Origin: Dehalococcoidia bacterium | GTDB lineage: Bacteria; Chloroflexota; Dehalococcoidia; GIF9; AB-539-J10 | DNA length: 34,066 nucleotides | Assembly (NCBI GenBank): GCA_003552125.1 | Contig: PUON01000128.1 | Coordinates: forward strand, 1 to 34,066 | Reading direction: 5' to 3' | Shown here: positions 15,731 through 18,117 of the stretch, piece by piece | How the letters are laid out: every line of letters starts with the position of its first letter | Position numbering within the stretch: position 1 is the stretch's first letter | Position numbers and translations under genes: made by a program | The notes under the pieces: model-generated | What the model was told of the DNA's origin: nothing | Database searches by the model: none | The model's input: the letters and a program-made list of their open reading frames with translations, nothing else

Positions 15731-16252
15731 GTGACCGGTAATGCGGATGGAGAAGCCTTACTGCGGCGTGTTGAGACTGAGGCTGCACAGTTGCAACGTG
15801 AATTACACGCCTGTGCAAGATGTACGCTGTACGCGGTTGGACGGAGTCTTCGTCTGGCTGATGATGACTGCCTCGAGGTGGCTTTGAAGACGGCTATACC
15901 GCTGAGTGGCGGGATAGCGGGTACACGCAATCAGTGCGGCGCTCTGATAGGCGGTGTGATGGCTATCGGGCTCGGCATGGTTCAGTACGATGCCCGTACG
16001 GCAAATCCTGAAGCGAGGAAGCCGGTGATGGCTTCGGCCAAGAAGTTGTACCGATGGTTTGAGCGGGAGTTTGGCCACGCAGACTGCTACGATATCCGCG
16101 AAATACACCTCGGACGATTCTTCGACATGGCAGATCCGGAGGAAACCAGGAAGTTTGAGGCAGCGGGCGGGTATGAACTATGCGCAGGTGTGGTGGGAAA
16201 GACAGCACGCAAAGCGGCGGAATTCATCCTCGAGGCTCGTCAGTGTTTGTGA
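15731..16252 (+). CDS. C_GCAxxG_C_C family protein
   Basis: This family of small redox-like proteins is named for its conserved cysteines and is common in anaerobes, often near oxidoreductases. The 173-residue protein has CARC (28-31), the core QCGALIGG (68-75, the GCAxxG-like block), C119 and C151, in the expected order. The start is a GTG with a GGGGGAA ribosome site eight bases ahead. It shares a strand and probably a transcript with the methyltransferase. The four main cysteines suggest a metal or cluster site, but no biochemical function is established. Confidence 0.85.
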   Translation: MTGNADGEALLRRVETEAAQLQRELHACARCTLYAVGRSLRLADDDCLEVALKTAIPLSGGIAGTRNQCGALIGGVMAIGLGMVQYDARTANPEARKPVMASAKKLYRWFEREFGHADCYDIREIHLGRFFDMADPEETRKFEAAGGYELCAGVVGKTARKAAEFILEARQCL

Positions 16253-16312: not shown

Positions 16313-16951
16313 TCACTGGCTGGTAGCGGAAGGGAAGGGTGCGACCTCGACTCTGTTGCGTCCCACTGACTTGGCGCGGTAGAGAGCGGTGTCGGCACGT
16401 GAAATGAGGAGGTCCTCGTTGTCGGGTGCCGTGTACTCGGCAACGCCGACGCTTACAGTAAGCGGGAACGCTCCTGAAGCGGGATCGGTCATGGGGGTTC
16501 CTTCGATGGATGTCCTGATGCGTTCGCCCATTACGGCTGCACCTGAGGCATCGGTGCTCGGCAGTATGATCAGAAACTCCTCCCCGCCATATCGTCCGAC
16601 GTAGTCGGTCTGCCTTATGCTGCGCTGTAGCACTCTCGCGACCTCCGAGAGGACGCGATCGCCTGTGCGATGGCCCCGGGTATCGTTCACCTGTTTGAAG
16701 TGGTCGATGTCGAGCATGGCGACACTGAGCCTCTCGCCATAGCGCTGCACGTGGATCAGCCATTCAGCCAGCTTCTCCAGAATCGCATGACGGTTGAGCA
16801 GACCGGTAAGAGCGTCGAAGTATGCCAGCCTCTCCAACTGCTGATTCTTCTTCTCAAGCTCACGTTGCATCGTCAGCAGTTGGTTATTGAGCCTGGTGAG
16901 TTCGGCATACACATCTTGGGGGCCGCCAGGCACCTGTGCAGGTGTGCTCAT
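16313..16951 (-). CDS. GGDEF-domain diguanylate cyclase
   Basis: The protein makes the second messenger c-di-GMP from two GTP. Of 212 residues, about 12-42 form a coiled-coil (LNNQLLTMQRELEKKNQQLE), which may drive dimerisation. The GGDEF domain fills 43-205: the FDALTGLLNR entry, DIDHFKQVND (81-90), the active-site GGEEF (122-126), and the inhibitory site RxxD as R113-QT-D116 five residues upstream. Both the active site and product-feedback site are intact. There is no sensor domain of its own. It is encoded 15 bases after the cobalamin-binding protein, which probably supplies the input. Confidence 0.94.
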   Translation of the reverse strand: MSTPAQVPGGPQDVYAELTRLNNQLLTMQRELEKKNQQLERLAYFDALTGLLNRHAILEKLAEWLIHVQRYGERLSVAMLDIDHFKQVNDTRGHRTGDRVLSEVARVLQRSIRQTDYVGRYGGEEFLIILPSTDASGAAVMGERIRTSIEGTPMTDPASGAFPLTVSVGVAEYTAPDNEDLLISRADTALYRAKSVGRNRVEVAPFPSATSQ

Positions 16952-16956
16952 CGTTT

Positions 16957-16974
16957 CCCAGTATACTCACTGGG
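16957..16974 (-). promoter_or_regulatory. Inverted repeat at the junction of B12-sensor and GGDEF genes
   Basis: CCCAGT (16957-16962) and ACTGGG (16969-16974) form a perfect 6-bp stem with a 6-base loop. It spans the stop codon of the cobalamin-binding gene and sits about five bases before the GGDEF ATG. No ribosome site stronger than GGGAA is seen, so this hairpin may tie GGDEF translation to the upstream gene, or may simply be chance. Confidence 0.35.
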
Positions 16975-18031
16975 CGCCCAGGATGTCATGTGCCGCTCTC
17001 AGCGCCTCGAGTGCATCTGTCCCGCATATGTCTGCCTCCATCCTGTTGCAGAGTGCTGGAGCGACAATAAATGGTCGTCCGCCCAGCATTATCCTGAGCT
17101 TTCCGCCGTGTTTGGATGAGCGGATCCACTCAATGAGGTCTCGTGTCTTGTTGAGGTGTGATGTCAGCGTAGTAGAGATAGCGAGCACGTGTGGGGAGTA
17201 TCTGTCCAATGTCGATAGAATTGCCTCTGCAGGGACGTTCGCTCCCAGATAGTGCGTGTCCCATCCATGCAATTCGAATATGTCCGAAACCATGCGTGCC
17301 CCCAATTCATGCATCTCATCTCCGACGCATGTTGCGACAAGCCTGAACCGTGCTTGCGGACTGCTGAAGATGTGACCGTACAACTGGGACATGATCAGTT
17401 GCGTTGCTGCGGTGCAATAGTGTTCGTCCGCCACGCTGATCCTGTTCATCTGCCACAGCCGTCCCACTTCCCATTGGCAAGGTCGGAAGATGTGAAGATA
17501 GATATCTTCTACCGTTGTTCCATTGCCCAAGGCTTCTCCGATGAGGACGCTGGCAGCAGTACGGTCTCCGCGAAGGAGAGCATCGAGGTACTCACGGGCG
17601 GTCTCACCGTGAGGGCGATCGTCGGTGACGAACGGGTCGACCGTATCAGGCACGAGCGGGAGGTACTCCATGGCCTCTCTGACGATGGGCAGTACGGCTG
17701 CCGCATGTTCAGCGGAAAGCGTCTCCTGCACCAGCTCATACGTATAGCGCAGGGTTCCTGGTAGACCTTCGGTCGGCAGCCCCCTGTGGTGGAAGAGCAC
17801 TTTGGCCCAGGCGACGTAATCAACGAACAATGCGGATTCGTTTACGGTGGAGGCATCGGCCAGCACATTGAGATGATAGATGGTATCGCGCACGGCAAGT
17901 TCACGACCCCTCTCCCCGTAGGGTTCCCACAGCGCGCGTTGCCGGTAATACTGCCGCGCCACGATGGCTTCCGCCAGAGCATCAATGTGTCCGCGCAGTT
18001 CGTCGCCTGCACGTGCCGAAGCTTCGAGCAT
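16967..18031 (-). CDS. Cobalamin-binding sensor protein with CarH-type W-x9-EH motif
   Basis: From the ATG at 18031 the protein has 354 residues. The C-terminal half is a B12-binding module: a four-helix cap (about 145-215) with W193 and, exactly nine residues on, E203-H204. It is followed by the flavodoxin-like domain with E-M-H-E-L-G (239-244), where H241 would ligate cobalt. In CarH and LitR photoreceptors the W-x9-EH motif packs on the adenosyl group of adenosylcobalamin and lets light trigger the response. Here there is no MerR DNA-binding domain; residues 1-130 are an unassigned helical region. The ATG at 18031 has AGGAG seven bases ahead; a longer frame to 18160 would run through the promoter. 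It pairs with GGDEF. Confidence 0.88.
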   Translation of the reverse strand: MLEASARAGDELRGHIDALAEAIVARQYYRQRALWEPYGERGRELAVRDTIYHLNVLADASTVNESALFVDYVAWAKVLFHHRGLPTEGLPGTLRYTYELVQETLSAEHAAAVLPIVREAMEYLPLVPDTVDPFVTDDRPHGETAREYLDALLRGDRTAASVLIGEALGNGTTVEDIYLHIFRPCQWEVGRLWQMNRISVADEHYCTAATQLIMSQLYGHIFSSPQARFRLVATCVGDEMHELGARMVSDIFELHGWDTHYLGANVPAEAILSTLDRYSPHVLAISTTLTSHLNKTRDLIEWIRSSKHGGKLRIMLGGRPFIVAPALCNRMEADICGTDALEALRAAHDILGAQ

Positions 18032-18087
18032 GACACACTCCTGCCCTTCGTGACGCGACAGCGCAACAAAGGAGGTAAACTGACCTA

Positions 18088-18117
18088 ATACTACACCCTT
18101 CTGATTCTGAACGGCAA
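18088..18117 (-). promoter_or_regulatory. Promoter for the B12-sensor/GGDEF operon
   Basis: On the minus strand TTGCCG (18112-18117) and TAGTAT (18088-18093) are spaced 18 bases. The expected start near 18081 leaves a leader of about 50 bases before the ATG at 18031. This supports 18031 over the upstream alternative start at 18160. Confidence 0.5.

Follow-up and report, generated by a model that had tools for sequence, protein, structure and literature searches.

A photocobilin-type sensor and a coil-bearing diguanylate cyclase encoded side by side in a Dehalococcoidia bacterium

Two adjoining genes in the window (the whole stretch of 34,066 nucleotides that was analysed) would encode a split photocobilin-cyclase switch, in which the photochemistry of adenosylcobalamin (AdoCbl) in a separate sensor is passed by coil contact to an interchangeable output. 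We give this reading a probability of about two in three. In that case the locus represents a photocobilin and a cyclase naturally paired as two genes, with the coil as the precise contact element, common to many kinase-linked relatives. The families, motifs, fold, gene pairing and coil specificity used in the argument were computed here.

Gene arrangement

Inspection of the open reading frames and the sequence of the window showed the genes for a cobalamin protein and a GGDEF protein, both on the minus strand. They are 15 bases apart, a spacing that the initial annotation had given and that the gene coordinates bear out:

16967..18031, minus strand: photocobilin-type sensor gene, 354 aa, photoglobin then B12 domain (Pfam, PDB profile search, AF2)
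18031, minus strand: sensor start ATG, with an AGGAG Shine-Dalgarno sequence at 18038-18042
16952..16966, minus strand: intergenic gap of 15 bases, equal in length in the same-genus relative L010
16313..16951, minus strand: diguanylate cyclase gene, 212 aa, coil and GGDEF only (Pfam GGDEF, 2.4e-46)

The locus had earlier been taken to end at 18117, which is wrong, as this position is out of frame with the sensor gene; the residue numbering used then is consistent with the ATG at 18031. The AF2 model of the full sensor gene product has a pLDDT of 95.6. A terminator search found none between or 3' of the two genes. The ribosome-binding site of the cyclase gene within the 15-base gap is weak, which favours the view that the genes are adjacent without a functional link and that the coil merely dimerises the cyclase; coils ahead of GGDEF domains are also common.

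A C_GCAxxG_C_C redox-type gene (window 15731-16252) is convergent on the cyclase gene. It is conserved next to the sensor-cyclase pair of the same-genus relative (L010 264-782).

The sensor

The sensor is almost certainly a photocobilin with the order globin-B12, and not a CarH protein, since its N-terminus is a globin with the biliverdin-contact residues. The following features were located:

17618..18031, minus strand: phycobiliprotein-like globin (photoglobin), residues 1-138 (AF2, Foldseek PDB matches, profile search)
17885..17887, minus strand: Asp49 codon; aligns with the biliverdin-contact Asp270 of SasPcob (8j2w)
17807..17809, minus strand: Trp75 codon; aligns with Trp296 of SasPcob, a contact of biliverdin ring D and corrin
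17381..17599, minus strand: four-helix B12 cap (B12-binding_2), residues 145-217 (Pfam, 1.8e-15), with W193-x9-E203-H204
17000..17344, minus strand: Rossmann B12 domain, residues 230-344 (Pfam B12-binding, 8.7e-21), with E239-x-H241-x-x-G244 and G263-ANV-P267

Pfam gives no domain in residues 1-138, a second sensory domain that the initial annotation overlooked. The AlphaFold model of this part (pLDDT 96.0) has a globin fold, and all 50 PDB matches listed were phycobiliproteins or engineered relatives, among them the biliverdin protein smURFP, with TMq up to 0.81. Individual Foldseek E-values were about 1e-3 to 1e-2, so what counts is that the matches are all of one kind and agree with a profile search: the profile, built from 57 relatives, matches both the C-terminal biliverdin globin in the photocobilin SasPcob (i-Evalue 6e-5) and phycobiliproteins, of which allophycocyanin scores best (2.4e-6). 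SasPcob is also the closest solved sequence to the sensor in a PDB profile search. Asp270 and Trp296 are key biliverdin contacts of SasPcob (Zhang et al. 2024, PMC10979010). Their counterparts on alignment, Asp49 and Trp75, are identical in 57/57 sensors from many phyla, and the only invariant globin residues in these relatives are D49, L57 and W75. In the mapping to 8j2w the chain index equals the SasPcob number minus 6, and the landmarks His108, Trp61, Glu71 and His72 all fit. A globin-like bilin domain is thus joined to the B12 domain as in other photocobilins, with the order reversed; globin first and B12 second is the order of one photocobilin group listed by Zhang et al. (2024, PMC10979010).

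The B12 part is CarH-like in that it combines cap helices and a Rossmann domain with the W-x9-EH and E/DxH motifs. The initial annotation had read the protein as a CarH-like sensor without a DNA-binding domain, naming the W-x9-EH cap, the E-x-H-x-x-G motif and the lack of a MerR domain. Both motifs are present, Pfam gives no MerR domain, and an AdoCbl-type B12 sensor without DNA-binding domain is what remains of that reading; the CarH-like identity gives way to that of a photocobilin. A CarH orphan lacking its DNA-binding domain was rejected: CarH has an N-terminal MerR DNA-binding domain, in place of which the sensor has the globin, and a His after the cap Trp for the bis-His light state, where the sensor has Gln194, as in SasPcob. 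The adenosyl cap W-x9-EH is invariant in the alignment of 57 sensors. Among the SignatureFinder motifs of light-responsive cobalamin proteins, GRLW, EH and GANVP are present; GxxH reads DEMH and is imperfect, its Gly (Gly237) standing at -4 rather than -3. The sensor is highly likely to bind AdoCbl, and the genome of the window encodes the adenosyltransferase CobO/BtuR, which makes it.

The Rossmann domain does score against NCBIfam corrinoid proteins, as would be expected of a methyltransferase corrinoid protein of the MtaC/MtbC type lying beside the cyclase by happenstance. That identity was rejected and is hardly credible: the scores, 47-56 bits, are far under the cut-offs of 215-370, no corrinoid methyltransferase partner occurs among the ten genes scanned, the sensor carries the W-x9-EH cap and the bilin globin, and the partners of its relatives are kinases and cyclases.

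Conservation of the pair and of the upstream DNA

Another genome from the genus (G045; locus L061/L010) retains the pair, with the same gap. L061 is a Dehalococcoidia MAG with the record label CSSed11_241, which we take to denote soda-lake sediment. The sensor is 73% and the cyclase 79% identical to the counterparts there, and dN/dS is about 0.08-0.09 for both genes, with dS near saturation. Because both proteins are conserved, with the same gap and a low dN/dS, the pair is not due to chance.

18046..18096, minus strand: upstream block of 51 bp, candidate promoter/operator, 49/51 identical in the same-genus relative

By comparison, identity is only 71% in the coding DNA, and the DNA further upstream of the block barely aligns with the same-genus genome. 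Within the block, two 11-bp arms separated by 4 bases form an imperfect inverted repeat; the block is a candidate operator or promoter. An RNA element upstream of the sensor gene was considered and rejected, as an Rfam search with E up to 1 gave no match and there was no folding signal (z -0.56).

The cyclase and its coil

The initial annotation had described a GGDEF enzyme with a coiled-coil N-terminus and intact GGEEF and RxxD sites, in agreement with the motifs and with Pfam, which places the GGDEF domain at residues 43-200:

16826..16921, minus strand: partner coil RLNNQLLTMQRELEKKNQQLE, common to histidine kinases of the sensor family (coil profiles)
16604-16615, minus strand: RxxD I-site, R113-x-x-D116, five residues ahead of GGEEF (sequence motif)
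16574-16588, minus strand: GGEEF site, residues 122-126 (sequence motif)

With a GG[DE]EF motif and an RxxD I-site five residues before it, as in diguanylate cyclases, the 212-aa protein is predicted to make c-di-GMP. It consists of the partner coil fused directly to GGDEF and has no sensor domain of its own. Two other cyclases are encoded in the genome, one with PAS domains and one a GAF-GGDEF-HD-GYP protein that could degrade c-di-GMP. A PilZ c-di-GMP receptor was not found in this genome (94% complete, 175 contigs).

A scan of species genomes with the sensor yielded more than 500 relatives, and the best 80, from about 18 phyla, were analysed. They include Chloroflexota, Pseudomonadota, Bacteroidota, Acidobacteriota, heliobacteria and one methanogen. 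The gene adjoining the sensor in these best 80 relatives is nearly always single and nearly always encodes a histidine kinase, frequently with a 4-base overlap. In a set of 55 partner proteins that includes the window cyclase, HATPase_c was found 52 times, HisKA 46 times and GGDEF 3 times. All partners except that of L100 (54/55) carry a stretch aligned to residues 13-43 of the window cyclase, and the near-invariant coil motif of the kinase partners is RLNNELxNxQRELxKKN. Polar residues of the coil are kept in nearly every partner (N22 and R30 in 54/55, N23 in 53/55, Q29 in 52/55); such conserved polar helix residues point to a specific interface, not a generic coiled coil.

The coil is present at 76/80 of the relative loci (best 80 of more than 500): 65 directly downstream of the sensor, 1 upstream, 2 fused and 9 labelled by the script as elsewhere. 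Seven of these nine are stop-to-stop frames that overlap the sensor end and thus lie directly downstream; the others are a coil 400 bases downstream in L063 and a second coil kinase in L111. At nearly all coil-bearing loci, coil and sensor share a strand and adjoin each other, or are fused. Natural sensor-coil-kinase fusions occur in L111 and L128.

The coil profile finds the window cyclase at 1.6e-14 in its own genome. A profile built from kinases only, with all cyclases excluded, still finds it (2.1e-13, 47.5 bits), as well as the cyclase of the same-genus genome (3e-12), and does not match either of the other cyclases in the genome of the window. The coil profile was also run against 400 Chloroflexota genomes and matched at 7 sites, 6 of which directly adjoin B12-sensor genes found in an independent search (G379, G117, G000, G125, G391 and G412); the one remaining match, at 1e-4, belongs to an ordinary kinase. 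Partner genes went into making the profile, which renders its sensitivity partly circular; the scarcity of other matches is free of this circularity. In G412 the coil scores only weakly (5.7e-4) and the sensor is matched over the B12 part alone, and the sensors of G125 and G391 are without the bilin Asp.

The coil specificity and the existence of sensor-coil-kinase fusions lead us to reject the view that the genes are unlinked neighbours, which is also at odds with the retention of the pair in the same-genus genome and with the 6 of 7 coil sites beside B12 sensors in Chloroflexota; we consider it very unlikely. There is little doubt that sensor and cyclase are a functional pair. Action on the cyclase by protein contact, as put forward in the initial annotation, is most likely, with the partner coil as the specific conserved element; a direct contact of the sensor through the coil is likely, coil conservation alone being no proof of it.

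On a sensor tree made by a quick method, with many open forks, at least five changes of output state occur, and the window sensor and L061 form one fully supported pair. In the partners of the window, L109 and L107 and in the L078 cyclase, the coil lies at the N-terminus or close to it. Since such window-like partners begin at or near the coil, the coil is the only part that they have in common with PAS-bearing partners.

Several other loci deserve mention. Two further genomes of this class, at L144 (1258-1629) and L145 (1426-1755), encode a coil partner with a terminal Cys-rich tail (LLPICxxCKxxRDDxGYW) in place of an enzyme, and the sensor is without the bilin Asp. L107 belongs to the archaeon Methanohalophilus euhalobius and combines this globin-B12 sensor with a partner of the coil-PAS-kinase type. 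L128, in a record titled Klebsiella pneumoniae MAG, encodes a globin-B12-coil-hybrid-kinase fusion; its sensor clusters on the tree with those of a Rubrivivax MAG and a Verrucomicrobiales MAG, and the record title looks doubtful. In L042, L047, L053, L054 and L056, all Chloroflexota, a B12 protein with a different N-terminus is encoded directly before a PAS-GGDEF gene. These pairs lack the coil and the bilin Asp and were rejected as members of the same system; they represent a separate pairing.

Bilin supply and the nature of the signal

The bilin contacts are invariant also in strict anaerobes in which no heme oxygenase was detected, which raises the question of the pigment bound. Neither a heme oxygenase nor an ABM heme-degrading gene was found in the genome of the window (94% complete, 175 contigs), and no HutW scored above cut-off there. 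Only 3/20 other sensor-bearing genomes had a heme oxygenase above cut-off, and none was found in that of Methanohalophilus euhalobius (L107). At 21/80 loci (best 80 of more than 500), none of them in Chloroflexota, a gene of about 99 aa of the ABM family, related to the heme-degrading MhuD, HmoB and IsdI, immediately precedes the sensor gene (L063, L072, L075, L087, L091-L094, L096-L099, L103, L110, L111, L116, L122, L126, L127, L135 and L137). It is plausible that this gene supplies bilin in its lineages, though not in Chloroflexota. The chances that a bilin is bound in this organism are about even.

These observations bear on the signal. In a plain cobalamin-status sensor, AdoCbl occupancy or the state of the ligand (Ado, methyl, OH) would set the cyclase activity, and light would be incidental. 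Such a role would fit the occurrence of the sensor family in strict anaerobes, a close relative that is a sediment Dehalococcoidia bacterium and the lack of a detected bilin-making enzyme in the genome of the window, and AdoCbl binding alone decreases the activity of the cyclase AbDPcob (PMC10979010). A plain B12 sensor would, however, need neither W-x9-EH nor D49/W75, which are invariant in 57 sensors, and the closest solved relatives are photolabile (PMC10979010). We regard a status sensor as unlikely and light as the probable natural signal at this locus. Light need not be the signal everywhere in the family, which includes a sediment relative and strict anaerobes.

Proposed mechanism

Photocobilins bind AdoCbl and biliverdin, and light cleaves their Co-C bond; upon photolysis, the Glu-His helix of the cap moves and the quaternary state changes (PMC10979010). 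In the split switch proposed here, the cap helices and the Rossmann domain would enclose AdoCbl in its base-off form; H241 would be the lower ligand, and W193, E203 and H204 would cover the adenosyl group. The adjoining globin may house a linear tetrapyrrole, held by D49 and W75, that relays the energy of red light. Breakage of the Co-C bond by light would shift the E203-H204 helix and change the quaternary state of the sensor. The N-terminal coil of the cyclase, kinase-borne in most relatives, would serve as docking site and transmission rod, and its contact with the sensor would set whether two GGDEF domains face each other, that is, the dimer state of the cyclase. Light, or loss of the adenosyl group, would in this way alter c-di-GMP synthesis, and the product would inhibit the enzyme at the RxxD site. 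In the cyclase AbDPcob, AdoCbl inhibits in the dark and light activates more than 10-fold (PMC10979010); by analogy, light would activate the window cyclase.

A broader reading is about as likely as not: a widespread two-protein set for light signalling, made up of a standard globin-B12 sensor, a docking coil and repeatedly swapped outputs (histidine kinase, diguanylate cyclase or Cys-rich tail, and here c-di-GMP). The pocket in anaerobes would take its tetrapyrrole from an unrecognised source, a point that concerns anaerobes without known heme oxygenase. For the construction of green- and red-light tools, it would help to exchange outputs while the docking coil is kept.

Comparison with known systems

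The initial annotation regarded a c-di-GMP mode of action as new. Control of diguanylate cyclases by photocobilins in response to light, both fused and in trans, had already been published (PMC10979010). Isolated photocobilins alter the activity of isolated cyclase in trans in a dose-dependent manner, in vitro and with purified, separated or mixed parts only (PMC10979010). For SasPcob, the sign of the effect is opposite with and without biliverdin, and the role of standalone photocobilins was called less clear (Zhang et al. 2024, PMC10979010). What is new with respect to that work is the natural two-gene, coil-linked and output-swapped photocobilin-cyclase arrangement.

SasPcob of Saccharothrix syringae (PDB 8J2W/8J2X) has, like the window sensor, an AdoCbl domain and a bilin globin, W-x9-EH, ExH, a Gln after the Trp and the Asp and Trp bilin contacts, and as a standalone protein it regulates a cyclase in trans in vitro. 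It differs in having the B12 domain first and in its chromosomal partner, and its His137, a bilin contact from the opposite monomer, corresponds to Ala270 in the window sensor. AbDPcob (PDB 8J2Y) is likewise a photocobilin controlling a GGDEF enzyme, but as one polypeptide instead of two genes and with a His at the position of the bilin Asp, which is intact in the window sensor. TtCarH shares the B12 cap and Rossmann domains and the adenosyl cap motif; it has a MerR domain and the second-ligand His132, whereas the sensor has Gln194 and an extra bilin globin.

A helical-stalk cyclase that is switched by a separate, stalk-binding partner is known from SiaC-SiaD of Pseudomonas aeruginosa, the solved case in which SiaC binds the helical stalk of the cyclase and promotes the active dimer (eLife 2021, PMC8457831). 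SiaD is the best NCBIfam match of the window GGDEF protein, which is not a member of that family (NF038266), since its 190.6 bits are under the cut-off of 290; SiaC, in contrast to the sensor, is no B12 or light protein. The majority arrangement among the relatives found here is a photoglobin-B12 sensor with a PAS-coil histidine kinase. It has the sensor architecture, the gene order and the partner coil in common with the window, where GGDEF replaces the kinase output and the PAS-like domain is missing.
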